Assembly (NCBI GenBank): GCA_015491615.1
Contig: WFVN01000138.1
Coordinates: 1-32,738 of the forward strand
Length of the DNA: 32,738 nucleotides
Direction of reading: 5' to 3'
Source: Gammaproteobacteria bacterium
GTDB lineage: Bacteria > Pseudomonadota > Gammaproteobacteria > S012-40
Shown: piece after piece, positions 14,470-28,674 of the stretch
Layout of the letters: the number at the start of each line of letters is the position of its first letter
Numbering within the stretch: position 1 is the first letter of the stretch
Position numbers and translations under genes: made by a program
The notes under the pieces: generated by a model
Database searches by the model: none
The model's input: the letters and a program-made list of their open reading frames with translations, nothing else
What the model was told of the DNA's origin: nothing

Positions 14470-15972
14470 TCACCCCCCCGTCATAAACTGCACACCGGAG
14501 ACGCACCGATAATTCGGATCGAAAAGATCATAATCTTCTGGAATCGAGGTCTTTTTGACTATACGCGCGATATTGTTCAACAGCTTCTCTGCCGGCACCT
14601 TGTTGACGTTGAAGAGTATGGCGACGTTGATTTCCGTATCGATATTCGTTAAATCAGGGTAAAAATACTTGGATACCCGGGCTCCACCAGGCACTCTCGG
14701 TATGGAGCCGTCTTTGGTGACATAATCGTACGTTACCCTATCTTCCACCTTATCCCAACCCAAAACTCTTCCAAATTCATTTTCCACCATACTCTTGATG
14801 GTCTCGGAATCCAGCAAACGACTTTCTGCAACATACGGCTGTCCCAGGACATCGTTACGCGTATCCAGGGCGCAAAGTATCCTCGCCATGTCATGGGCAT
14901 TGGCGGCCCACCCACCGGTGGCTAGACCAAGCATACTATCGATAGTGGGAGCCGGCGGCATCTTACGTTGGGTCTGGTCTTTCTTTTCATCATAGAAGTA
15001 ACTCGTCGCATCAAGATTCGTGAAGGTGTAGGCATCCACGAGATTTGAAAGTCCCAAGGGAGCGAACACATTATCCTGAATGTAATCGTGGTAGGACTGC
15101 CCACTGCGCTCACTGATGAGAAGGCCCAGCACACCGAAACCATGGTTGGAATAACGACGATTTAAACCTGCCTTGAAGCGGAGGGGGACGGCTCGAAATT
15201 GTTTCCCCTCACTTGTTGTGTACACGTAGGTCCCCGCCAACATGGCCGCATGTAGTTGCGCATAGGAAAGCGGAACATTCGCACCGAGATTCCAATAGTC
15301 GCGTGCTACTTTCGTGTTCCCGCTCCTCAAATAACCAGCCGTATGGGAGAGAACATGCCAGACCCGAATCTGGCTGGCCCACTCCAACATCTTCTCAACA
15401 TTGGCTTGGCTCCCCCCTTGATCCAAATATTGAGGCAAGGAATTCACGTCGAGTTCTTCCTTAGAGTTCAGGAGTCTTTCGGGTGCCTCCACCAAGGCGT
15501 CGAGGTAGATCCCAATGTTGTTCAGCGCCCCATCCGGATTGGACAAGAGCCACGGCTCATCGGAAGAACCCGCTCTGGGCCATATCACTTCTATCTGGCT
15601 GCTGTAGACAGGCTGATCGAGGGAAATATCACCCGACTCGACGAGCTGGAGGACACCGATGGCCGTGACCACTTTGCTGACGCTGCCGATGCGGGTACGG
15701 TGCCATGGCTTCATCGCCTCTTGATTTTCTCTGTCAGCCCAGCCGTACCCCTTCCAGAGCACGAGCCGGCCATTTTTGGTCACCGCCACGGTGGCACCAG
15801 GGATCTCGTTATCCTCCAAGTATTTCAATACCAGAGCGTCGATCTCGGTCCCCAGAAGCGGAGTTTGCTTACCGGAAATAGGCGGAGACGAACCACCACA
15901 GGCACTCAGCAACAGAAATACGGATGCGAAAGTCAGAAGTCTGCCGATGGATCGAAAAGTCTCTCTCTCCAT
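14470..15972 (-). CDS. Serine hydrolase lipoprotein, class C beta-lactamase / penicillin-binding-like family
   Basis: Start MERETFRSIG at 15972 (alternative 15987); lipobox LLLSACGG; SVSK (SxxK) in RTRIGSVSKVVTAIGVLQLVESG; RRYSNHGFGVLGLLI (YxN); lower GC than neighbours. Confidence 0.85.
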   Translation of the reverse strand: MERETFRSIGRLLTFASVFLLLSACGGSSPPISGKQTPLLGTEIDALVLKYLEDNEIPGATVAVTKNGRLVLWKGYGWADRENQEAMKPWHRTRIGSVSKVVTAIGVLQLVESGDISLDQPVYSSQIEVIWPRAGSSDEPWLLSNPDGALNNIGIYLDALVEAPERLLNSKEELDVNSLPQYLDQGGSQANVEKMLEWASQIRVWHVLSHTAGYLRSGNTKVARDYWNLGANVPLSYAQLHAAMLAGTYVYTTSEGKQFRAVPLRFKAGLNRRYSNHGFGVLGLLISERSGQSYHDYIQDNVFAPLGLSNLVDAYTFTNLDATSYFYDEKKDQTQRKMPPAPTIDSMLGLATGGWAANAHDMARILCALDTRNDVLGQPYVAESRLLDSETIKSMVENEFGRVLGWDKVEDRVTYDYVTKDGSIPRVPGGARVSKYFYPDLTNIDTEINVAILFNVNKVPAEKLLNNIARIVKKTSIPEDYDLFDPNYRCVSGVQFMTGG

Positions 15973-16326
15973 GTGGAAACCACCCATATCCCAATGCCGA
16001 CCAAAGACTCTAAAAATAGAGATGATTATAGACAGCAAATAGAGATATAGACAGCCATTTTGTAGAGTCAAACTGTTGTCCGTCGCCGACTCGGCAAGCA
16101 TCGGCCACGAGCGGGATCATGGTCACGTTCCCTAGAGGGTTTTGGGATTCTGACGGGCCAAATCCTGCCTACAACACCATGCTGGAGATATCGATCACTT
16201 TGCCTAGGCCCGCGATTCATCGGGTGGTGAAACGAGAATCTTTCTAGCCCCATAGGCCCAGACTTAGATACATGCCATCGTGTCGCCTCGCGGTCTTCCT
16301 CTCACCTGTGACTTTTGCACCGGAGA

Positions 16327-18234
16327 TCAACGAGCGGAGGGAAAGAAAGCCTTGCGTAAGTAGGCGACGATGGAGTCGATTTCGGCCGGGGTGAGAACTC
16401 GTCCCCAGGCGGGCATGGCGCTGCCGGGAACACCGTAGGCGATGCGCGAGGCCAGGTCGTCGTCGGTGAGGCGCGCCAGGGTCTGATCACGAAGATCACG
16501 AGGCGGGGGCTCGAGGAAAGCGCCGATCCAATTGCGACCACTGCCGTCGGCGGCGTGGCAGAAGGAACAGTTCTCCTGATAGAGCCGCTCCCCCGCTCGC
16601 TCGCGGGGGGTGGCGTCGATCAGGACCGGGGCGCGGTCATGGACGGCATAAGGGGTGGCGCCACTCACCTGGTCCGGGGCACGGTGGTCATAACCGGCGC
16701 GCGGATAAGATACCGCCCACGACCGCCACGGTACCCCTTCGGTTTCCACCCGCGCCCGGTCGTGGCAACTGATGCATGCCCGGAGATAGAGGATGCGGCC
16801 ACGCTGCTGCGCCGGGGTGAGGCGGTCCACCGGCCGGTCCAGGGGGATCTCTCCCAAGGCGAAGGGAAAGGCATCGCGGTAACGGTCGTGGTCGGGCCAG
16901 CCGTTCTCGGCGGTGTGGTAATCGCCGGCCGGGGCTTTGGCGACGACGAAGCGCGTATGGACGAAGCGAGCCACGGCACGCATGTCCGCCTCCTCGAGGA
17001 CGCGGGCGAAGGATTGCATGGCGGTTCCGGGACGCCCTTCCCGCAGGACGCGGACGATGGCCTCGACGGTCAGGCGCTCGGGGTCGGCGGCGGTGAAATC
17101 CACCGGCGGTGGATCAAGGAAGGTGGCGGCCAGAGTCTTGGCGTCGCCGTCGTAGCCGTGGCAGAAGTAACAGCGGAAGTCGTAGATGCGCCGGCCACGG
17201 GCCAGCTCCGGCTCGGGATCTTCGCCGCGAACGTCCTCTCTTGCGTCGCCCCCTCCCGCTTCTCCTTCGCGCGGGCGAATGAAACGAATGAACACGTACT
17301 CGGCCACGTCGGCGATCTGCTGCGGGGTGAGGACCTTGCCCCAAGCAGGCATGACGGTTCCCCGCTTGCCTCGTTCGATGGCCTGGTAGAGGTGCGCCCG
17401 ATCGAAACGGGCGCGACTGGCGGTGCTGGTGAAGTCACGCGGAGGCGGGTGGATGAAGTGGGCGCGGGGGCCGTCACCGCGCCCGTCCCGCCCGTGACAT
17501 TCATAACACTGCCCCTGGAAGATGGCTTCGCCGCGTAGGGGGTCGCCCTCGAGATTGCCGGGATACCCCCTGGCGGATACGGTCGCTCGTAGCAAAGACG
17601 CCTCATACCGCGCCCGCCCGAGGAAGCGCTCGCGCACGAAGTCCACTACTCGTTCGATCTCTTCCGGCGACAGGCGCGAGACGAAAGGCATCATGGCGGT
17701 GCCCGGGCGTCCGTGGGTGACGGCGTCGATCATGCGCTCGCGGGTGAGCGTCCCAGGATCGGCCTGAGTGAAATCCCGTGGCGGTGGTTTGAAGCTGTTG
17801 CGCGCCCACATCGCCGCCGCGCCATCGTCCCCGTGGCAGACGGCGCAATGCCGCCGGTAGAGGGCCTCGCCGTTCTTCTTATCATCCGAGCCGCCATTTC
17901 CTTTTCCCCTTTTGGCAGGCATGAAGCGACGGCGCACGAAGTCCACCACTTGCTCGATCTGCTCCGGGGTGAGACGCGAGGCGAAGGGCATCATGGCAGT
18001 ACCCGGGCGTCCGTGGGCGACGGCGTCGATCATGCGCTCGCGGGTGAACGTCCCAGGATCGGCCTGAGTGAAATCTCGTGGCGGCGGCTTCAATGAACGG
18101 GCGGCGCGGGAGTCACCGTCTCCCCGCTCTCCGTGGCAAACGGCGCAATGGGCTTGATAGAGACGTTCCCCTTCGTCCGCCAAAGCGACATTCATGGCTA
18201 CATAGACGCACAACCAAAGCAGGTGGCGTTTCAT
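16327..18234 (-). CDS. Hexaheme c-type cytochrome built from six tandem cytochrome c domains, secreted
   Basis: Signal peptide MKRHLLWLCVYVAMNVALA (start 18234; alternative 18255); six CXXCH: CAVCH, CAVCH, CYECH, CYFCH, CISCH, CSFCH; Met-ligand-type motifs GTAMMPF x2, GTVMPAW, GTAMQSF, GSAMPAW. Confidence 0.9.
   Translation of the reverse strand: MKRHLLWLCVYVAMNVALADEGERLYQAHCAVCHGERGDGDSRAARSLKPPPRDFTQADPGTFTRERMIDAVAHGRPGTAMMPFASRLTPEQIEQVVDFVRRRFMPAKRGKGNGGSDDKKNGEALYRRHCAVCHGDDGAAAMWARNSFKPPPRDFTQADPGTLTRERMIDAVTHGRPGTAMMPFVSRLSPEEIERVVDFVRERFLGRARYEASLLRATVSARGYPGNLEGDPLRGEAIFQGQCYECHGRDGRGDGPRAHFIHPPPRDFTSTASRARFDRAHLYQAIERGKRGTVMPAWGKVLTPQQIADVAEYVFIRFIRPREGEAGGGDAREDVRGEDPEPELARGRRIYDFRCYFCHGYDGDAKTLAATFLDPPPVDFTAADPERLTVEAIVRVLREGRPGTAMQSFARVLEEADMRAVARFVHTRFVVAKAPAGDYHTAENGWPDHDRYRDAFPFALGEIPLDRPVDRLTPAQQRGRILYLRACISCHDRARVETEGVPWRSWAVSYPRAGYDHRAPDQVSGATPYAVHDRAPVLIDATPRERAGERLYQENCSFCHAADGSGRNWIGAFLEPPPRDLRDQTLARLTDDDLASRIAYGVPGSAMPAWGRVLTPAEIDSIVAYLRKAFFPSAR
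17641..18093 (-). repeat. Near-identical 300-bp-offset tandem repeat inside the hexaheme cytochrome gene (domains 1 and 2)
   Basis: 17701-17780 vs 18001-18080 differ at about 4 of 80 positions by eye; flanking 17641-17700 vs 17941-18000 more diverged; exact 300-nt spacing = 100 codons. Confidence 0.85.
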
Positions 18235-18346
18235 AAGCGAAGACGACGGGGGCATGGGGCGGTTGGCTTGGATCGGGGGTTTGCGCTAACCTACGGCGGC
18301 ACGACAGAACGACGAAACCGCGTGCGAGGGGGGATCATACCGGGCC

Positions 18347-19156
18347 ATGGCCAGGGGGGGCAAACGCAACGTCGAGAGGATGTATCGGCACCTGCCGACA
18401 GCGGTGTTCGCCGTGCTCCTGGCGGCCCTGGCGGCCTTGCCCGGCTGGAGCGACACCCTCATCGGTGACCCGGTGGCAGGCGCCAACGACCCCATTCTCG
18501 GTTCCAAACACGACTTCACTGGGTTGAACCGCCGTGCCGGCGTGTTCGCCATGCCGGGAGTGGCCTTCTCCGACTACGGCAACCCCTGCGTCTACTGTCA
18601 CCTCCCTCCGGAGAAGGCCGAGGTGGATGAGACGAAGGAAGGGGCCATCCCCGACTGGAACCGTTTCTACCCCGCCACCGATGCCTACCGGCTCTACGAC
18701 AGCACTTACATGGACTCCAAGACGCGCACCCCCAGCCCCATCAGCCTGCTTTGCCTTTCCTGCCACGACGGCACCATGGGAGTGGACATGGTGGTCTTCC
18801 CGCCGACCGATTTCGACAGCGCCCAGGATGAGGCCCTGCACATGCGCATCCATGGCGCCGACGACGTCGTCTCCTGCGGCAAGTGCCACAACGGGCGCGT
18901 GGCGCACGACATCTCCATCAAGCACATCGGCACCGACCTGCGCAACGATCATCCCATTTCCATGCGCTATGCCGGTCTGTTGCGCGCGGACGAGGACTTC
19001 CGCCTCCCCGATACTCCCGAGGGTTTCAACAACGGTGTGCGCTTGTACGAAGGACGGGTCGAGTGCGCTTCCTGCCACAACGTCCACAACCCGGAGAAGG
19101 ACCTGCTCCTGCGAGCCGACTCGGACCTGCTCTGCCAGACATGTCACACCAAGTAG
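18347..19156 (+). CDS. Pentaheme doubled-CXXCH / cytochrome c3-like multiheme cytochrome, secreted
   Basis: Five CXXCH: CVYCH, CLSCH, CGKCH, CASCH, CQTCH; SLLCLSCHDGTMG, VECASCHNVHNPEKDLLLRADSDLLCQTCHTK; signal sequence MYRHLPTAVFAVLLAALAALPGWS (alternative start 18380). Confidence 0.88.
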   Translation: MARGGKRNVERMYRHLPTAVFAVLLAALAALPGWSDTLIGDPVAGANDPILGSKHDFTGLNRRAGVFAMPGVAFSDYGNPCVYCHLPPEKAEVDETKEGAIPDWNRFYPATDAYRLYDSTYMDSKTRTPSPISLLCLSCHDGTMGVDMVVFPPTDFDSAQDEALHMRIHGADDVVSCGKCHNGRVAHDISIKHIGTDLRNDHPISMRYAGLLRADEDFRLPDTPEGFNNGVRLYEGRVECASCHNVHNPEKDLLLRADSDLLCQTCHTK

Positions 19157-19290
19157 CCCGCTTGGCAAGGGGCCACCACACAACGCCCGGAGCTCATCGG
19201 CAACCCGTGAACGGCTGGCTCGCCCCGACCCGATTTTGCCGCCTTTCCCCGTCGCACGACACCGAAGAGCCACCGAACGAAACGACTGCC

Positions 19291-20352
19291 GTGGCACGCC
19301 TGGTCGTTTTGTTCGTCGCCGTTCTTCTGAGCGCCTGCGCCTCACGCCCCTCGATACCGATTTCAGCGCCGCCCGTCTATCCGCCACCGCCATCCGAGCC
19401 CCGTTTCGTGTACGACGGCACCCTGCGCACCAGCAGCGATTTCATCCGCCCCACCTTCGGCGACCGCTTGCGCGCCTTCGCTACCGGTAGCCGCGAGACG
19501 CCTTTCGGTCTCGCCAAGCCCTTCGCGGTCGCGGTACGCGCGGGGCGCATCTACGTGAGCGACACCCAGCAGCGGGCGGTGCTGCTGTTCGATCTTTCCG
19601 GCCAGCGGGTGGTAGTCATCGGCGAGCGGGGGGCGGGCACGCTGGTGAAGCCCATGGGCGTGGCTCTCTCCCACGATGGCCAGCGTCTGTTCGTGGCCGA
19701 CGTCACCGCCCGCCGGATCCAGGTCTTCGACGCAGAAGGGAAACACTTGGCCACCCTGGGACGCGACGCCGGCATGCGCCGCCCGGTGGGGTTGGCTCTT
19801 TCCCCCGACGACGCCCGCCTGTATGTGGTGGACGTGGGGGGCGTGGACACGGACCGCCACCGGGTGTGGGTATTCGACACCCGCAGCGGCAAGCTGCTGT
19901 TCCATTTCGGCCGCCGCGGCACCGCCCTGGGCGAGTTCAACCTGCCCATCCACGCCGCCACCGGCCCCGACGGCACCCTCTACGTGGTGGACGGGGGCAA
20001 CTTCCGCGTCCAGGCCTTCGACCCGGACGGACGCCCCCTGTTCGCCTTCGGCGCCCCCGGCCGGCGCTCGGGGCAGTTCTCCCGCCCCAAAGGGATCGCC
20101 ACCGATGGCGAGGGGCGCATCTACGTGGTGGACGCGGCCTTCGGCAACGTGCAGATCTTCGATGCCCGCGGGCGCCTGCTGATGCACCTGGGCGACCGGG
20201 CCACCAGCGGCGGCCCGGGGCGCTTCATGCTCCCCTCGGGCTGCACGGTGGACGAGGCCGGACGCCTGTTCGTGGTGGATCAGTTCTTCCGCAAAATCGA
20301 CGTCTTCCGCCCCGCCGCCCAGCCCCCGTGGGAGCGCCTGCCACTACGCTAA
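19291..20352 (+). CDS. NHL-repeat (6-bladed beta-propeller) lipoprotein
   Basis: GTG start VARLVVLFVAVLLSACAS with lipobox; repeats KPMGVALSHDGQRLFVADVTARRIQVFDAEGKHLATLG, LPIHAATGPDGTLYVVDGGNFRVQAFDPDG, RPKGIATDGEGRIYVVDAAFGNVQIFDARG. Confidence 0.88.
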   Translation: MARLVVLFVAVLLSACASRPSIPISAPPVYPPPPSEPRFVYDGTLRTSSDFIRPTFGDRLRAFATGSRETPFGLAKPFAVAVRAGRIYVSDTQQRAVLLFDLSGQRVVVIGERGAGTLVKPMGVALSHDGQRLFVADVTARRIQVFDAEGKHLATLGRDAGMRRPVGLALSPDDARLYVVDVGGVDTDRHRVWVFDTRSGKLLFHFGRRGTALGEFNLPIHAATGPDGTLYVVDGGNFRVQAFDPDGRPLFAFGAPGRRSGQFSRPKGIATDGEGRIYVVDAAFGNVQIFDARGRLLMHLGDRATSGGPGRFMLPSGCTVDEAGRLFVVDQFFRKIDVFRPAAQPPWERLPLR

Positions 20353-22803
20353 CCCGGGCGGGGAGAAACCCTCCTGCAGTTGCCTCTGAAACGCCTCGCC
20401 AGGCAGGGGTGGGCTGATGTAGTACCCCTGGATGGCGTCCACACCCATGGTTTTGAGCAATTCGGCGGCGCGCGCGTCCTCGACCCCTTCGGCGATCACC
20501 CGCAACCCCAGATCGTGGGCCATGTCGATGGTGGAGCGGACAATCACCCGGCTGTGCTCGTCCTGTACCAGGCCGACGATGAAGGAACGGTCGATCTTGA
20601 TCTCGTTCACCGGCATCTGCTTGAGATAGGAAAGGGAAGAGTAGCCGGTACCGAAATCGTCGATGGAGACGGTGAAACCACGTTGATTGAGGGCTTCGAG
20701 GATATGGCTGGCAGCGCGGACATCCTCCACCAGAGCCGTTTCGGTCACCTCCAGTTTGACGAAGCGAGGCGAGACACCGGCCGATTCCACCTGCCGCGCC
20801 ACATCCTCCGCCAGACTGGGACGTTGCAGATCGCGGGCGGAAAGGTTCAGCGCCAGACACAGACCATGGGAAAGAATGACCGGCGCGCATTCGGCCAGAA
20901 CCCGCTCCAACACCCAATCGGTGAGGGTGTGGATGAGACCGGTCTGTTCCGCCAGGGGAATGAACTCGGAAGGTTGCATGATGCCGTGTACCGGATGGTG
21001 CCAGCGCACCAGGGCCTCGCAGGCGGTGACCCGGGCCTGCTGGAAGGACCACACCGGCTGGTAGTGGAGCAACAGTTGTCCCTGACCGAGGGCCTCGCGC
21101 AGCTCTCCCATCACCGCCAACTGGCGGAGGTTGTGCTGGTCGCTCTCCGGGTCGTAGAGGGCATAACCCCGATTCTCCCGCTTGGCCATGTACATGGCCA
21201 CGTCGGCCCGCTGCAGGAGTACGCCGGCATCTCGCCCATGGTAGGGATACAGGGCGATGCCCATGCTACACCCTACCTGTAAGCGCTGGCCGTCGACGAC
21301 GAAAGGCTCCTCCAGGGCCTTCACCAGCTTGTTGGCGGTGTGCACCGCCTGACGCACGTCGGCTCCCGGCAGGAGGATGGCGAATTCGTCACCGCCCAGG
21401 CGAGCGACGGTGTCCGATTCGCGCAACAACAGGCGCAGGCGCTGGGCCACCTGCTGCAGGAGCTTGTCGCCCACCTGGTGGCCGAGGGTGTCGTTGACGA
21501 TCTTGAAGCGGTCTAGATCCATGAGACAGAGGGCAAAGCGACCCTTCTCCCGTTGCGCGGCACGCACGCACTGCTGCATGCGATCGAACAGGAGGGTGCG
21601 GTTGGGAAGATCCGTGAGAGCGTCGTGCAGGGCCTGGTAACGCAGCGCGGCCGTCTGCACCTTGCGACTGGTGATGTCGCGGGCCACGGCGATGTGATAA
21701 TCGGTGGAACCGAGACGGATACGACGCAGGGTCACCTCCATGGGAAAGACGGTACCGTTGCGACGGCGCCCGTACAGCTCATGCATCTCTTCTTCTTCGC
21801 CCTCGCCGCCCAGAAACAAACGACGCGCCGCTTCGCGATAAGGTTCGGGCACGAGCCGTTCCACCGGCTGCCCCACCAATTGCCCCGGCGGGTAACCGAA
21901 CACCCGTTCGCATGAGGCATTGGCGAGGCGCACCACCCCCTGCGGATCGACGAGGATGATGGCGTCGGCGACGTGGTCCATAACGGCGCGGGTACGGGCT
22001 TCGCTCACCCGCAGGGCCTCCTGCATCTGATTGAAGGCGACCGCCAACTCGCCAATCTCGTCCTTACGTTCGACGGGAATACGCACTTGGCGTCCGCCGC
22101 GGGCCACTTCGTCGATGGCCGCCCGCAGAATCCCCAAGGGGCGGATGACGTCGCGCCGCAGAGCCAGAAACAGAATCAACCCCAGGGCCAAAGCCAACGC
22201 CAGGGCGCCCACCCACAACTTGGTGCGCGTAGCCTGGATGCGCGCCTGCGTCTGGGCGGTGGAAACAGCGAGGTAAAAGACACCGCGTAGGGGCGCGTGA
22301 TCGTAACCATGGCAGGAAAAACAGGCGACATCGGCGCGAATGGGCGTCATCAGAGCGAGGACCCCGGGACGCGAGTCATCCAGCACCGTCTCACCACGCA
22401 GGGCCCGCTCCAACATGCCGGGAGAGACCAGATCTGGGTGACGGGCCGGACGTGGTTCCCGCTCGAACACTGGCCCGCCCAGATAGGCATTGACCTTTTC
22501 CACCGTGCGCAGATCGGTAAAGGCCTCGCTTCCGTCGCGGCGCAAGACTTCGATCTCCAGGATGCCGGCGACGCCGTGGAGCCGATCCAGCCATTCCCGC
22601 GCCAAAGTCCCGCTGCCGTTGAGCATGAGGGTCTTGAGGCTGGCCATGAGGGTCTGGGCGTGCACCTTGAGTTGCTCGGTATCGGCGCTGTGGATGGCGC
22701 GCGCCAGCTCCCGGTCCACCCACACGCCCACGCCCCCGAGGACGAGGAGGAGCACGCCGGCGAGAATGGCGGCGAGGCGCAGGCTGAGACTGTGCAGGTT
22801 CAT
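20344..22803 (-). CDS. Membrane GGDEF-EAL protein with CXXCH-containing periplasmic sensor, HAMP and PAS domains
   Basis: TM1 LAAILAGVLLLVLGGVGVWV, periplasmic ADVACFSCHGYDHAPLRGVFYLAV, TM2 LWVGALALALALGLILFLAL, HAMP, PAS (DHVADAIILVDPQGVV), RESDTVARLGGDEFAILL (I-site RxxD and GGDEF), EALVRWHHP, EVTETAL, DDFGTGYSSLSYL. Confidence 0.93.
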   Translation of the reverse strand: MNLHSLSLRLAAILAGVLLLVLGGVGVWVDRELARAIHSADTEQLKVHAQTLMASLKTLMLNGSGTLAREWLDRLHGVAGILEIEVLRRDGSEAFTDLRTVEKVNAYLGGPVFEREPRPARHPDLVSPGMLERALRGETVLDDSRPGVLALMTPIRADVACFSCHGYDHAPLRGVFYLAVSTAQTQARIQATRTKLWVGALALALALGLILFLALRRDVIRPLGILRAAIDEVARGGRQVRIPVERKDEIGELAVAFNQMQEALRVSEARTRAVMDHVADAIILVDPQGVVRLANASCERVFGYPPGQLVGQPVERLVPEPYREAARRLFLGGEGEEEEMHELYGRRRNGTVFPMEVTLRRIRLGSTDYHIAVARDITSRKVQTAALRYQALHDALTDLPNRTLLFDRMQQCVRAAQREKGRFALCLMDLDRFKIVNDTLGHQVGDKLLQQVAQRLRLLLRESDTVARLGGDEFAILLPGADVRQAVHTANKLVKALEEPFVVDGQRLQVGCSMGIALYPYHGRDAGVLLQRADVAMYMAKRENRGYALYDPESDQHNLRQLAVMGELREALGQGQLLLHYQPVWSFQQARVTACEALVRWHHPVHGIMQPSEFIPLAEQTGLIHTLTDWVLERVLAECAPVILSHGLCLALNLSARDLQRPSLAEDVARQVESAGVSPRFVKLEVTETALVEDVRAASHILEALNQRGFTVSIDDFGTGYSSLSYLKQMPVNEIKIDRSFIVGLVQDEHSRVIVRSTIDMAHDLGLRVIAEGVEDARAAELLKTMGVDAIQGYYISPPLPGEAFQRQLQEGFSPPGLA

Positions 22804-23028
22804 GGGGCTCCGGTATGACGGAAGAGTGTCTACTTTTCAGCAGGTTCCGCGCCAATCCTCCCTGACGGTCCTCGAAGCATTTAATCATCAGCCCGGCCGC
22901 GGGAAAAGGGCGAGATCCCTTCAGCGTCATACGAGCCTGGGGGAGCAATGTGATTCCAAGGTGAATGGCCCAGACCGGCATCTCATCGCCGTCTCCCGTT
23001 CGTCTCCGGCTTGGATCAAGAAGGAGCT

Positions 23029-24222
23029 TCAGGGGAGATGGAGACGGGTCACACCCCCGTAACTACCGATCCACAAGCTTCCGTCGGCGGCGCGCGACAT
23101 GGAAAACACGTTGTCGGCGAAGAGACCGTCCTTACGGGTGAGGACGACGAAGCCACGCCCGTCCTCGCGAAAGCGCGCGAGGCCGGCGCTGGTGCCGATC
23201 CACAGCGTGCCCTGGGAATCGATGTGAAGCATGAAGACATGGTTGGCCGGCAGACCGTCGCGGGTGGTGTAATTGGTCCAGCGCTGCCCGTCATAGCGCG
23301 CCAGACCACCACCCCAGGTACCTGCCCAGACGGTTCCATCGGCGGTCACCGCCAGGGAGACGATGTAGTTGGGATTGTAAGCAACCGTGACCCGCTCCAG
23401 CCCTTGCTCGTGTTTCTGTTGGGCATGGTGGCGCGAGGCGGCCCCAGGGTCGGATTTGAACTGGATGGCATCCTTGACCACCTCAAAGGGCGCTCCGACA
23501 CCTTCCTCGTGGGCCCAATGCTCCCAGCGACCCTCCTGATAACGGGCCACCCCACCCTCAGTGGCGAACCAGATGGCACCGTCGGGCCCCTTTTCCACCC
23601 CGTATACCCAGTCGTTGGGCAATCCCCCCTCGGTGTTGGCGACGTCGAAGGTCTCCCAGGCTCCCGGGTCACCCAAGCGAGCGCCACGTACCCGATTGGC
23701 GCCGGACCAAGTGGCGATCCACAGGTCGCCCCGGTCGTCCAACTGGGTATCGTACACGAACTGGTCGGCCAATCCGTGGGGGATGTTGTAGTTCGTCCAA
23801 CTGTCCTTTTCCGGATCGTATACCGACAAGCCACCGCCGTAAGTTCCCACCAGCAGAAGCCGGCCCAATTTACCAAGGTGGAAGACGCCGTTGGAAAGGA
23901 GGCTGCCACTGTCGATGTTGTAGAGACGATAATCGTCACGGCGGATATCGTAGCGGATGACCCCGCCGGAGGTGCCCACCCAAACGACATCGCCATCGGC
24001 GAGGATGGCCTTGACGTTGCGGTTGCCAACGCGGAAATGGCTGAAACGGGGCGGGCGACGGGCTCCTTGGTGTGGCTGGGCCTGGTCGACACCCGCTTCG
24101 GGGCCCCGGGCCTCCGGTGAAGTGGGACCCGTTTGCGCTTGACGCTGGCCCAACCAATACCCCCCTCCCGCCACGGCGACCAGGAGGGCTGCAACGAAAA
24201 AAAACCTGGGGCGGGAGGTCAT
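23029..24222 (-). CDS. Reg_prop (two-component-regulator-propeller-like) beta-propeller protein, membrane-anchored or secreted
   Basis: 397 aa; N-terminal hydrophobic segment FFFVAALLVAVAGGGYWLG; repeats DLWIATWSGANRV, AIWFATEGGVARY, TVWAGTWGGGLARYDGQRWTNYTTRDGLPANHV, TLWIGTSAGLARF; no kinase or receiver domain. Confidence 0.85.
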   Translation of the reverse strand: MTSRPRFFFVAALLVAVAGGGYWLGQRQAQTGPTSPEARGPEAGVDQAQPHQGARRPPRFSHFRVGNRNVKAILADGDVVWVGTSGGVIRYDIRRDDYRLYNIDSGSLLSNGVFHLGKLGRLLLVGTYGGGLSVYDPEKDSWTNYNIPHGLADQFVYDTQLDDRGDLWIATWSGANRVRGARLGDPGAWETFDVANTEGGLPNDWVYGVEKGPDGAIWFATEGGVARYQEGRWEHWAHEEGVGAPFEVVKDAIQFKSDPGAASRHHAQQKHEQGLERVTVAYNPNYIVSLAVTADGTVWAGTWGGGLARYDGQRWTNYTTRDGLPANHVFMLHIDSQGTLWIGTSAGLARFREDGRGFVVLTRKDGLFADNVFSMSRAADGSLWIGSYGGVTRLHLP

Positions 24223-24284
24223 GGACGGGCACCCAATATGCAGACGCCCGGCATTCTACCATCCCCGGGGAGAGGGGGCAGCCG

Positions 24285-25316
24285 TCACCACCCGATGCGC
24301 GCCACCAAGCCATTGAGACCGGCCCAGACCCCACCGTCCTGGGTCACGGCGAGGGCATACACGTCCCGCTGGGGCAGACCTGACACCCCATGCCAACGAC
24401 CGTCCTTTCGGTAGGCCAGTCCCCCGTCGGTGCCGGCCCACAAGCGCCCGTCGCCATCTACCGCCAAAGCATAGACGATATCGCCCGGCAAACCGTCGGC
24501 ACGGGTCTCGTTGCGGAAACGGCGGCCATCGAAACGGGAGACGCCACCGCCCCATGTCCCTACCCACACATGGCCGTCGCCGTCCACGGCGAGGGAGAAG
24601 ACGTAGTTGGGATTGAAACTGGGACGACCATCCACGCGCACGTTCAGGTCGTGGCGATTGCGTGTGCCAAGGCCGGTGTTGTCGCTGAAGGGGCGACCGT
24701 CACGGTTGGGGGCCCCCAGGCCGTCGGCGTGGGTCCAGGTACGCCAGGAGCGACCGTCGAAGGCGTTGAGACCGCCCTCGGTACCCACCCAGAGGACACC
24801 GCGCGGATCCACGGCGAGGGCATACACCCATTCGTTGATCAGTTCCTCCAGATAGGTCTCGAAACGGTCTTCGCCACGGCGCCAGCGGTTGAGCCCGGCC
24901 CAGGTACCGATCCATACGTCGCCAGCGCGGTCTTCCGCGAAGCTGTACACCCAGTAGTCGGCCAGTCCGTGGAGTGGGAAATAGGTCTTCCAGCGACCCT
25001 CGGCATAGCGAGACACCCCGCCCCCATTGGTGCCCAACCATACCTCGCCGCGGCTGTCCACGAAGGCGGCGAAGACATACTCGTTGGCCAGGGCGTTGTC
25101 GCGGGTGAACACCCCCAGGCGCTCGCCCGTGCGCAAATCCACCTGCATGGCCCCCACGGAAGTCCCCACCCAGAGTTGCTGGCGAGCGGAGTCCACTGCC
25201 AAGGCCCGCACTACCACGCCCTGCCCCACTTGGAAGGATTCGCGCACGGCGAAACCCGCCGCCTGGACGACGGCACAAAACGAGACGGAGAAGAAAAGAA
25301 ACAGACGTGCAATCAC
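24285..25316 (-). CDS. Reg_prop beta-propeller protein, secreted, paralogue of the downstream gene
   Basis: 343 aa; signal peptide MIARLFLFFSVSFCAVVQA; repeats EVWLGTNGGGVSRYAEGRWKTYFPLHGLADYWV, DVWIGTWAGLNRW, VLWVGTEGGLNAFDGRSWRTW, HVWVGTWGGGVSRFDGRRF. Confidence 0.87.
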   Translation of the reverse strand: MIARLFLFFSVSFCAVVQAAGFAVRESFQVGQGVVVRALAVDSARQQLWVGTSVGAMQVDLRTGERLGVFTRDNALANEYVFAAFVDSRGEVWLGTNGGGVSRYAEGRWKTYFPLHGLADYWVYSFAEDRAGDVWIGTWAGLNRWRRGEDRFETYLEELINEWVYALAVDPRGVLWVGTEGGLNAFDGRSWRTWTHADGLGAPNRDGRPFSDNTGLGTRNRHDLNVRVDGRPSFNPNYVFSLAVDGDGHVWVGTWGGGVSRFDGRRFRNETRADGLPGDIVYALAVDGDGRLWAGTDGGLAYRKDGRWHGVSGLPQRDVYALAVTQDGGVWAGLNGLVARIGW

Positions 25317-25609
25317 AGAAGACTGCGCAAATAGAGAACGACGTTCTCGATTTCCCGGTCGCTGAGGATGCCGGCGAACCCGGGCATCACCCCATTGCCC
25401 TGTCGGATCCGCTCGGCCAGGTCACGGTCGGTGGTGTTGAGGCGCTCACCGAGGGCAAAATTGGGCATGCCAGGCATCATCCCCTCCCCCGCCGGACCGT
25501 GACACCCCATGCAGTAACGATCGTACACCGTTTTTCCGGCAGCCACCGGGTCGTCGGCCCCAACGGCACCGGCGAAGGCAACGAAGAAGACCCAAACGGC
25601 TATCCTCAT
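25313..25609 (-). CDS. Small monoheme cytochrome c, periplasmic
   Basis: MRIAVWVFFVAFAGAVGADDPVAAGKTVYDRYCMGCHGPAGEGMMPGMPNFALGERL...NGVMPGFAGILSDREIENVVLYLRSLL; ATGA overlap with downstream propeller gene. Confidence 0.9.
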   Translation of the reverse strand: MRIAVWVFFVAFAGAVGADDPVAAGKTVYDRYCMGCHGPAGEGMMPGMPNFALGERLNTTDRDLAERIRQGNGVMPGFAGILSDREIENVVLYLRSLL

Positions 25610-25619
25610 GGGCACGGCT

Positions 25620-26438
25620 TCAGTCGATTCCCAACCGCAAACGGCGCTCGGTGAACCAGTCGTCGCCGATACCGATGTTGGGTTTGACATCCTGTACCTG
25701 AAAGAAAGAGGTATGGAAGGTCTGAACGTTCTGCACGAAGACCCGATCCCAAGCCCAGGCCTTCCCCACCTGTTGCCAGGTGAGGAGCTGACGCTTGAGG
25801 AACAAACCCTTACGGTCGTAATAATCCACCCGCGTCTTGACACACTGTTCCCAGTTTTCGGCCTTCTTGAACCAGTTGACCTTCTTGCTGTAGATGGAAT
25901 CGGGCTCTTTGGGCACGCTCTCCACGACGAAGAACTCTTCGCCTTTGCGGTCCCGTTCCAAACGCAGGAAACGGTGCTCGTCGTCGTCCAACCGGCGCAG
26001 GCTGATGTCTCCGTAGGTGAGATCGGATCCCAGGAAGCTGTCCCCCAGGTCGCGCACCGATACACGCCGGATCTTGCGCAGCACCGGCAGGTAGATCCAT
26101 TGATCGGCATTCTTCCCCGTTTCCGGCAGATAGGCCCAGCGCATGAAAGCGGCACCACGGGCATCCGGTGGATAGAGGGTGAAGAGAACCATCTTCTCCT
26201 GGATACCGTCCTTGCCCTTGTAGTCCTTCCACAGACGCAGGTAAACGGTGAGCTTTTCGTTGCCGGCCCGGTCCTTGAGGCGAATGGTAAGGCGCGATTG
26301 TTGATCGTCACCTGGGTGTTTGTAATCACAGCGAGCAACGATATCGCGGCCGTTCAGCGATATGCCAGCAGAGCTCTCCCCCTCCACTGCGAAGGCCGGG
26401 AGGGAAAGGAGCGCTGCGAGCAAAATCAGCCGTTTCAT
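25620..26438 (-). CDS. Outer membrane lipoprotein-sorting (LolA-like) protein
   Basis: 272 aa; signal peptide MKRLILLAALLSLPAFA; KMVLFTLYPPDARGAAFMRWAYLPETGKNADQWIYLPVLRKIRRVSVRDLGDSFLGSDLTYGDI typical of this family. Confidence 0.82.
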   Translation of the reverse strand: MKRLILLAALLSLPAFAVEGESSAGISLNGRDIVARCDYKHPGDDQQSRLTIRLKDRAGNEKLTVYLRLWKDYKGKDGIQEKMVLFTLYPPDARGAAFMRWAYLPETGKNADQWIYLPVLRKIRRVSVRDLGDSFLGSDLTYGDISLRRLDDDEHRFLRLERDRKGEEFFVVESVPKEPDSIYSKKVNWFKKAENWEQCVKTRVDYYDRKGLFLKRQLLTWQQVGKAWAWDRVFVQNVQTFHTSFFQVQDVKPNIGIGDDWFTERRLRLGID

Positions 26439-27469
26439 GTTGTCGCGCCCGGTTTCACCGCCTGGATGAGAGTGAAGGGGCTGGGCTCGGGGAGGGGTCG
26501 GTAGGCGATGTCGGTGAACCCGACGTCACGCACCATGTCGGCCACTTCCTTCACCGAGTAAGCCCGTCCGGCAGGGGTGTGGACCAACTGATTGAGCCCG
26601 ATGAGCACCGGGAGCAACGGCCCCGACTTCTCCTCATTGAGGAACTGTTCCTGCACCAGCAGCACCCCACCCGGATCCAGGGCCTCGTAAGATTTGCGGA
26701 TGATCTCGCGAATCACGTCCGGCCCTTCCTGGTTGATCATGGAGGACAGGAGCACCACGTCGTAGCCGCTGCCGAAAGGGTCTTCCAGGTAGTTGCCTTC
26801 CTTGGTGCTCACCCGCTCACCGGCGCGGTAATCGGCGATGATGTCGCGGGTGACCTCCAAGGTCTGGGGCAGGTCCATGACGTCGGCGGTCATGCCGAGA
26901 TTCCTCTCCGTCATGATGATAGAGAAGATGCCAGGTCCACCACCCACGTCCAACATCCGCTTTTTACCGGGCAGGGGGACTTCCTCGGCAAGGAGCTGTG
27001 CCTGCGGGATCCCCCGATAGAGCATACCCATGATGTACGTGCGGGTCTCCTCGGGGCCGTGCTCGTGTTGTTTCTCCACCACCGGGCGCCCTTCGATCAC
27101 CGCTTTCTTCAGACCGGTCCAGGCCTCCACCCAGGATTCGAACATGCTGACGATACCGCCCTGATAACGGGGACTGCCCCTCACCAGGAAGGTCTCCGCC
27201 AAGGGAGTGTTGGTGAAACACTCACCCTCCTTGCGCAGGAAGCCCTGACATACCGAGGCTATGAGGATCATCTCCAGGCCACGCGCATCGGCGCCTGTCT
27301 TCTCGGCCAGTTCTTCGGCCGTGGCCGGCCCTTCATGTAGCAGAGTGAACACGTCCAGGGCGTTGGCCACGTGGAATGCGAACGAGGGCCAATAAGCGGA
27401 AGCGGCTTCCATGACCGCCATAGGATTGAGGCCATCGTCTTTGGAGTCGTTCTGCCAATCTTTGTCCAT
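26435..27469 (-). CDS. SAM-dependent O-methyltransferase (plant OMT / acetylserotonin-type family)
   Basis: 344 aa; winged-helix-like N-part ATAEELAEKTGADARGLEMIL; KRMLDVGGGPGIFSIIMTERN; VVLLSSMINQEGPDVIREIIRKSYEALDPGGVLLVQEQFL; ATGA overlap with the next gene. Confidence 0.85.
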   Translation of the reverse strand: MDKDWQNDSKDDGLNPMAVMEAASAYWPSFAFHVANALDVFTLLHEGPATAEELAEKTGADARGLEMILIASVCQGFLRKEGECFTNTPLAETFLVRGSPRYQGGIVSMFESWVEAWTGLKKAVIEGRPVVEKQHEHGPEETRTYIMGMLYRGIPQAQLLAEEVPLPGKKRMLDVGGGPGIFSIIMTERNLGMTADVMDLPQTLEVTRDIIADYRAGERVSTKEGNYLEDPFGSGYDVVLLSSMINQEGPDVIREIIRKSYEALDPGGVLLVQEQFLNEEKSGPLLPVLIGLNQLVHTPAGRAYSVKEVADMVRDVGFTDIAYRPLPEPSPFTLIQAVKPGATT

Positions 27470-27567
27470 CGAAGTCCCTTGCTTGATATGAACGCCGCAC
27501 CGGCCGACGGATTCCTCCGACCGGATAACGGGAATCTTAAACGCGAAGCGGAAGGAGATAAAGGAAA

Positions 27568-27587
27568 GGGGGCGCCGAAGCGCCCCC
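27568..27587 (-). terminator. Rho-independent-like terminator downstream of the secreted Gly-rich protein gene
   Basis: GGGGGCGC-CGAA-GCGCCCCC perfect 8-bp stem, tetraloop; on the minus strand followed by TTTCCTTTATC; 34 nt past the stop codon of the 27622-28674 gene. Confidence 0.7.
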
Positions 27588-27621
27588 TCCCTTTTCTTCG
27601 GCTAGACAGCCTTGCCGTTGA

Positions 27622-28674
27622 TCACGGGCAAACGTCGGTCACCCCATCGGCACCCACGCCCGTGGGGCTGGGATTGCCATCCGTGCCCACCAAGCAGGGA
27701 TTGGGACCGAAGTTGCCGTCCCAGTTCCAGGGTCCGGCCTGGAACAGACTGAAGTAGGCGATGGGATTGGGCGTCTGGGGCGAGCCGACCACCTCGTAAG
27801 CCTGGTAGCCGAACATGCTGCCCATCATGCCGCCGGTCATACCGCCGCCACCACCCGTACCACCGGTACCAACGGTGGAAGTCAAGTCGATGGACTGACC
27901 GATCCAGGTGGCCTTGATGTTGTCACCCGGATTGTAGGTGAGGGAGTCCCCCGTGGGCAGGCTGGCGGTACCGGAAGCGTTCATCCGGGTACCGGCGAGC
28001 TGACGCAGGGTGAACACCTGCAGATCGGTGGGGGCACCCACCGCGCCTTGCTGCAGACCCACCACCTGGTCCAACTCCATGGTGAAGCCGTCGGGCTGGC
28101 CGTCTCCGTCGCTGTCGACGTCCGCGGCATAGAAGAAGTTGCTCACGAAGTCATCGGCATAGCCGGCGCCACCGGCATTCTCCAGAATTTGGTCGATGAC
28201 GATGGTGTCGGCATTGGGATCCAGCCCCCAACCGGTGGCGAGGCTGGTGTTGGCAGCGAACACGGTGCCGTCGGGCGTGGTCTGGTTGATGGTCTGCTTA
28301 CCGATGATGCCCTGCGGGTTGGCGCCGCCGCCACCACCGAAGTTGACGGTCATAAGAACCACCGTCTCGTCGGCGAAGCTGGGCGCCGTGAGGGTGGGGT
28401 CGACCGTGGCATTCTGGTCGGTGACGATGGTGCGGATGTAGGCATCGGTGGCACCCGCCTGCTGCATGCTCAATTGCAGGAAGCCGTTACCCTCGGCGAT
28501 GACGCCGCAGGTCCACCCCGCCGGACAGTTGTAGCTGATGGCCCCGTTATTGGCGGTCCACTGATCGAAGGTCTTGACCTCGATGGGGACTGCGGCGGAA
28601 CTCGCCCCGGCATACATCGCCGCCAACGCCCCCGCGAGCGCAGTCATTTTGATGAACTCCTTCCCCGTACGCAT
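27622..28674 (-). CDS. Secreted hypothetical protein with Asp-rich calcium-type loop and Gly/Met-rich segment
   Basis: Start MRTGKEFIKMTALAGALAAMYAGASSAA with strong SD GAGGAGG; DVDSDGDGQPDGF; TGGTGGGGGMTGGMMGSMFGY; no family recognised. Confidence 0.8.
   Translation of the reverse strand: MRTGKEFIKMTALAGALAAMYAGASSAAVPIEVKTFDQWTANNGAISYNCPAGWTCGVIAEGNGFLQLSMQQAGATDAYIRTIVTDQNATVDPTLTAPSFADETVVLMTVNFGGGGGANPQGIIGKQTINQTTPDGTVFAANTSLATGWGLDPNADTIVIDQILENAGGAGYADDFVSNFFYAADVDSDGDGQPDGFTMELDQVVGLQQGAVGAPTDLQVFTLRQLAGTRMNASGTASLPTGDSLTYNPGDNIKATWIGQSIDLTSTVGTGGTGGGGGMTGGMMGSMFGYQAYEVVGSPQTPNPIAYFSLFQAGPWNWDGNFGPNPCLVGTDGNPSPTGVGADGVTDVCP

Follow-up and report, generated by a model that had tools for sequence, protein, structure and literature searches.

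The stretch of DNA considered here (the window) is the whole of contig C138 (32,738 bases), part of a gammaproteobacterial genome of 2.12 Mb that is 87% complete and split into 289 contigs. Its positions 16327-28674 hold a cluster of genes for cytochromes, beta-propeller proteins and a heme-motif enzyme of cyclic di-GMP (c-di-GMP) turnover, and our main subject is one of them, a five-heme (pentaheme) cytochrome related to the filament-forming OmcE. Working from the letters alone, an earlier, sequence-only reading had counted 13 CXXCH motifs here, as 6+5+1+1 in four genes. Six-frame translation gives the same number for the whole window, with all 13 motifs inside four genes between 16327 and 25609 (6 at 16327-18255 and 5 at 18347-19156, on the minus and plus strands, respectively, then one each at 20344-22803 and 25313-25609, both on the minus strand), for a chance level, estimated in six frames from first-order Markov copies of the window, of 1.9 on average and 6 at most. 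Pfam analysis also confirms the families that it had named (NHL, two Reg_prop, LolA-like and O-methyltransferase, next to a secreted Gly-rich protein), and the coordinates are correct, with refined start codons.

Genes of the locus

The plus strand of the cluster carries two genes. The first encodes the pentaheme cytochrome (18347..19156, starting at 18347 or 18380), which has Paired_CXXCH_1/Cytochrome_C7 matches in Pfam and is predicted to be secreted, its N-terminus being, as judged by eye, a hydrophobic segment. The second encodes an NHL beta-propeller lipoprotein (19291..20352; NHL E value 4.7e-21) with a GTG start, refined to 19291, and the lipobox LSAC. All remaining cluster genes are on the minus strand. 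One of them, for a predicted secreted hexaheme cytochrome c (16327..18255) with six class I/cbb3-type domains in tandem (Cytochrome_CBB3 E 1e-73; Cytochrome_CBB3/Cytochrom_C repeats in Pfam), is divergent from the pentaheme gene, with 91 bases between the start codons at 18255 and 18347.

The other minus-strand genes form a tightly packed set that converges on the pentaheme-NHL pair. Closest to the pair lies the gene for a HAMP-PAS-GGDEF-EAL protein (20344..22803; domains by Pfam), a predicted c-di-GMP enzyme and heme-motif sensor, in which the GGDEF and EAL motifs are intact and the single CXXCH (CFSCH) sits in the N-terminal extracytoplasmic region; both heme attachment and catalysis are predicted. 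Then come two Reg_prop propellers, one with an N-terminal signal or anchor (23029..24222; E 4.9e-25) and one with a signal-like N-terminus (24285..25316; E 3.2e-36), a small, predicted secreted monoheme cytochrome c (25313..25609, with its start refined to 25609; Cytochrome_CBB3 E 1.5e-14) and the genes for the LolA-like protein, the O-methyltransferase and the Gly-rich protein, to which we return below. Because the cytochrome and Reg_prop genes overlap by 4 bases, as do the LolA and methyltransferase genes, co-transcription is suggested.

A five-heme relative of OmcE

The strongest clue to the nature of the system comes from the pentaheme. A profile built from 14 orthologs matches PDB chain 7tfs_A with an E value of 2.7e-19 and 9yuq_N, from a multiheme cytochrome with 16 chains, with an E value of 1.9e-13. 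The 7TFS structure shows the extracellular cytochrome filament that Geobacter sulfurreducens builds from OmcE (PMC12954529), a tetraheme subunit. When tetraheme relatives are included, the alignment of the wider profile with OmcE runs from end to end (9-240 to 13-232, E 3.4e-39), and the two proteins have in common an N-terminal KHD, CVxCH, WNR, CxSCHDG, NDHP, SCHxVH and a C-terminal CHxK motif. By homology, the pentaheme thus belongs to the OmcE nanowire family. It is best described as a variant of the OmcE type and not as an OmcE, because it would carry five hemes per subunit instead of four, and five CXXCH are found in nearly all of its orthologs (which are 50-83% identical). The additional CGKCH, with its flanking sequence, is inserted relative to OmcE and the tetraheme relatives between the second heme site and NDHP. 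In a phylogenetic tree, the pentaheme orthologs form one clade (80/80 tips, support 0.92). A second five-heme OmcE-like paralog, which is absent from the window, directly follows the NHL gene in 16 loci of relatives (for example L080:9116-10117 and L081:12116-13123) and forms a separate clade with support 0.997.

Exactly five histidines outside the CXXCH motifs are invariant in the 14 orthologs, namely H55, H165, H187, H202 and H247 (269-residue numbering), that is, one per heme. Five hemes and five candidate distal histidines are consistent with bis-histidine ligation, and this is a matter of consistency only. In the OmcE filament, one heme-ligating histidine is supplied by the adjacent subunit (PMC9473688). 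Compared with OmcE and the tetrahemes, the pentaheme has lost the histidine of CHTPH after heme 1 (where it has IPP or LPP) and gained two others, H165 and H187, which means that contacts between subunits may differ. This difference is one of the points in favour of a more modest role, in which the pentaheme would have the OmcE fold and never polymerise, serving as a soluble or lipoprotein-bound monomer that relays electrons between periplasmic cytochromes and the Uet conduit (undecaheme electron transfer, discussed below). Homology alone does not prove polymerisation, and the tetraheme UetA is described as no more than an extracellular cytochrome (PMC10734462). However, both nearest relatives of known structure look like assemblies, the one a filament and the other comprising 16 chains, and one distal histidine per heme is kept, as in the filament family. 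We therefore regard a monomeric relay as unlikely, while considering it the most serious competitor of a surface heme chain.

Conservation of the neighbourhood and the Uet conduit

Scanning 84,980 species genomes with one pentaheme query revealed 278 relatives, from which 80 loci were kept. Every one of these comes from a metagenome-assembled genome that bears the label Gammaproteobacteria or Proteobacteria; one is assigned to Candidatus Tenderia (L127) and four to Thiomicrorhabdus (L147-L150). Pentaheme orthologs that are 63-82% identical occur in 10/12 other genomes of the same family, and orthologs are found in other families as well. Since these loci are related by descent, the fractions that follow, which are calculated for loci whose contig leaves room for the gene in question, are descriptive and do not represent independent trials. 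The pentaheme gene is followed by the NHL gene in 75/75 loci, accompanied by a divergent triheme cytochrome in 70/74 and by a triheme pair or fusion in 62/67, while the Reg_prop pair is found in 37/47, with a small cytochrome c beside it in 33/47, and ccm-type genes in 32/45. A GGDEF/EAL protein is encoded in 26/47 loci, or in 34/47 if a Kelch protein is accepted in its stead. Pfam confirmed ccmI, ccmH, ccmF, a ccmG-like redoxin and Kelch at the loci of relatives. The common order, according to tblastn, is histidine phosphatase, Gly-rich, LolA-like, cytochrome, Reg_prop pair, (Kelch), GGDEF/EAL, pentaheme-NHL and trihemes. Because argC, erpA, anmK and related housekeeping genes form the other flank in most cases, this is a stable chromosomal locus. 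The smallest form seen (L147, in a Thiomicrorhabdus sp.) consists of the pentaheme-NHL pair followed by ccmF, ccmG, ccmH and ccmI-like genes and a four-heme relative.

The sequence-only reading had staked its proposal, that these genes form one envelope electron-transfer or redox-sensing system, on their being conserved together. The core is indeed kept as one locus across many genomes and is therefore not a chance grouping, which supports the proposal well, with an amended gene list: the LolA-like, methyltransferase and Gly-rich proteins are lineage-specific extras, and ccmF, ccmG, ccmH, ccmI and Kelch belong to the locus in relatives. The LolA-like protein (PF17131; 25620..26438, minus strand; E 3e-38) has orthologs, among the loci compared, only in genomes of the same family. 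The O-methyltransferase (Dimerisation and Methyltransf_2 in Pfam; 26435..27469, minus strand) was considered as a core member and rejected, its 3 matches all being in the window or on the same contig of a congener (G001), so that it is a genus-specific gene beside the locus. The predicted secreted Gly-rich protein (27622..28674, minus strand) matches no Pfam or NCBIfam family and has homologs in five loci of the same family (28-78% identical, six sequences in all). A PF00144 beta-lactamase-family serine hydrolase at 14470-16101, which adjoins the hexaheme gene, is not conserved with the locus.

The hexaheme of the window corresponds to a fusion of two triheme proteins, which are encoded by separate genes in most relatives (e.g. 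L077 and L100); among the loci compared, a single six-heme open reading frame (ORF) is found only in the window and in the same congener (L072). Its only match in a PDB search is 6h5l_B, a hypothetical cytochrome chain. A role as the cbb3 oxidase subunit CcoP was discarded, with an NCBIfam ccoP score of 128 bits for a cut-off of 180 and no oxidase adjacent, the COX1 homolog of the genome being on contig C11. In several relatives (L072:6087-7863, L074, L081, L082, L084, L087 and L093), a protein of ~450 residues with a signal-like N-terminus, which matches no Pfam family and looks porin-like by eye, adjoins the trihemes, together with a DsrE-family protein; it is a possible outer-membrane partner.

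As for the GGDEF/EAL protein, its N-terminal CXXCH is present in 25/26 full-length orthologs, within a conserved CHGYD...LRGV context, and a PDB search with this N-terminal region returned no meaningful match. Together with the fact that Reg_prop propellers occur as sensor domains in hybrid two-component systems, the conserved heme motif could be taken to mean that the locus is primarily devoted to redox sensing and biofilm control, with the enzyme and propellers as sensors and the cytochromes merely reporting redox state. This is very improbable, the least likely of the readings that we weighed, as the enzyme is gone from many loci that keep the pentaheme, NHL and triheme genes.

The sequence-only reading saw no porin, and this is correct for 16327-28674, where Pfam and ORF inspection reveal no candidate for the porin of an Mtr- or PCC-type porin-cytochrome conduit. 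With the Mtr/Mto, PCC3 and Geobacter Ext/Omc clusters, the window shares multiheme cytochromes and a presumed part in envelope electron transfer, but it has neither porin nor decaheme, and its matches to MtrC-type profiles are weak and partial. The genome as a whole does, however, encode a near-complete Uet-like cluster, on contig C136 (G000:C136:1-11036, L058). Its genes encode, in this order, a 578-residue protein that no Pfam family matches, a pair of trihemes, a protein of 548 residues, another triheme, two NHL proteins and an 11-heme protein; the first is a beta-barrel candidate, inferred from position and length, and one of the trihemes matches NCBIfam nanowire_3heme. In its predicted gene content and in gene order, this cluster agrees with the Uet pathway described in Tenderiales and Gallionella (PMC10734462) and with the genes of Candidatus Tenderia electrophaga, i.e. 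trihemes Tel_16515, 16520 and 16530, TPR protein Tel_16525 and undecaheme Tel_16545, where Uet-type genes are highly expressed (PMC5371394). The text of the latter study makes no mention of a pentaheme or propeller locus, which one Ca. Tenderia sp. genome (L127) possesses.

In a sample of 369 genomes of the class, in which shared descent inflates association, the pentaheme occurs in 32/369 and the Uet porin in 35/369, with 30 genomes having both, 2 the pentaheme only, 5 the porin only and 332 neither. The pentaheme-bearing genomes span 13 family labels, and in the two that lack the porin (G082 and G211) a single contig has matches of the size of UetA and of the undecaheme. The pentaheme locus is thus nested within Uet-bearing genomes. 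Besides its Uet-like cluster, the genome of the window encodes, on contig C239, an NHL protein paired with a tetraheme from the same superfamily as the pentaheme. Unlike Uet, the window has no porin, c7-type trihemes or undecaheme, its trihemes are of the class I/cbb3 type and its pentaheme belongs to a separate clade. Judging by these features, the locus is a companion of Uet and not the Uet cluster itself.

This distribution also bears on the frequent presence of ccm-type genes at the locus, which, like the minimal Thiomicrorhabdus form (where only pentaheme, NHL and ccm genes of the set are found together), would fit a locus mainly concerned with making c-type cytochromes, in which chaperoning or heme handling around Ccm falls to the propellers and small cytochromes and the pentaheme is one client. 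We consider this improbable. Pentaheme and NHL genes stay together even where no ccm genes are linked to them, as in the window (ccmF being on contig C177), a similar tetraheme-NHL pairing accompanies Uet and the presence pattern of the locus tracks Uet, whereas Ccm is far more widespread.

Proposed working and implications

Our preferred reading, to which we give a probability of roughly 0.62, is that of a redox-sensing, c-di-GMP-linked locus for making and controlling an OmcE-type extracellular five-heme cytochrome that works with Uet. What we observe is the set of genes, its conservation, the homology to the OmcE family, the numbers of hemes and histidines and the co-occurrence with Uet, from which we infer surface secretion, polymerisation, partner roles and signalling. 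In this scheme, (i) the pentaheme would be secreted, matured by Ccm (encoded next to the locus in relatives) and, once exported to the surface of the cell, would polymerise or at least serve as a surface heme chain, (ii) the NHL lipoprotein, because it is the constant partner of the pentaheme and the tetraheme is likewise paired with an NHL protein, would be a dedicated outer-membrane assembly or anchoring factor, (iii) the trihemes (joined in one hexaheme in the window) and the small cytochrome c would carry periplasmic electrons, (iv) the porin-cytochrome conduit of Uet, with its genes on another contig, would move electrons across the outer membrane and (v) the heme-motif GGDEF/EAL protein would read the periplasmic redox state and tune c-di-GMP, hence biofilm formation or expression.

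Several points weigh against this scheme. The kept loci, being related by descent, count for less than their number. The OmcE-like ligation of heme by a neighbouring subunit's histidine cannot be read from the pentaheme sequence, and AlphaFold2 models with pLDDT (per-residue confidence) of 40 (54 sequences) and 42 (112 sequences) give no view of fold or subunit contacts. In addition, the ccmF gene of this genome is away from the locus, on contig C177, and sensing by the GGDEF/EAL protein is not universal, as many loci lack it.

Two other features of the genome may bear on the direction of electron flow. The COX1 homolog on contig C11 is cbb3 oxidase-like by eye, and another cluster (G000:C205:1727-5458, L060), which encodes a pentaheme, molybdopterin/iron-sulfur-like and membrane subunits, resembles alternative complex III. 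Together, they fit an oxygen-linked electron-uptake chain like that of Tenderia, and we slightly favour uptake over electron disposal. Because RuBisCO, like dissimilatory DsrA, was not found in this 87% complete genome, autotrophy is unsupported. Contig C179 contains an ORF with 21 tandem CXXCH beside a 743-residue ORF (G000:C179:556-2406, L059), possibly a PCC3-like large multiheme.

OmcE-type wires and Uet are already known, and the cytochrome nanowires of known structure are from Geobacter and two archaea (PMC12954529). The sequence-only reading did not recognise the combination of genes as a described pathway, and while its pentaheme falls in the OmcE nanowire family, our literature search turned up no account of this locus, of a pentaheme nanowire or of any five-heme relative of OmcE (Baquero 2023 (Cell) and Eddie 2022 (mSphere; Tenderiales) were outside the search and may contain one). 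What sets the locus apart from that of OmcE is its gammaproteobacterial setting, with a heme GGDEF/EAL enzyme, Reg_prop, Kelch and ccm genes. We tentatively suggest, at somewhat less than even odds, that it represents a new subclass of polymeric five-heme wires, widespread in uncultured gammaproteobacteria, built by a dedicated propeller lipoprotein, linked to the cell by way of Uet and switched by an adjacent heme c-di-GMP enzyme.

To our knowledge, neither an assembly factor nor a regulator has been settled for any cytochrome wire, and the locus offers a candidate for each, the NHL lipoprotein for assembly and the heme-motif enzyme for regulation. If our reading is true, nanowires would extend to uncultured gammaproteobacteria and to organisms that probably use electrodes or minerals, such as Tenderia.

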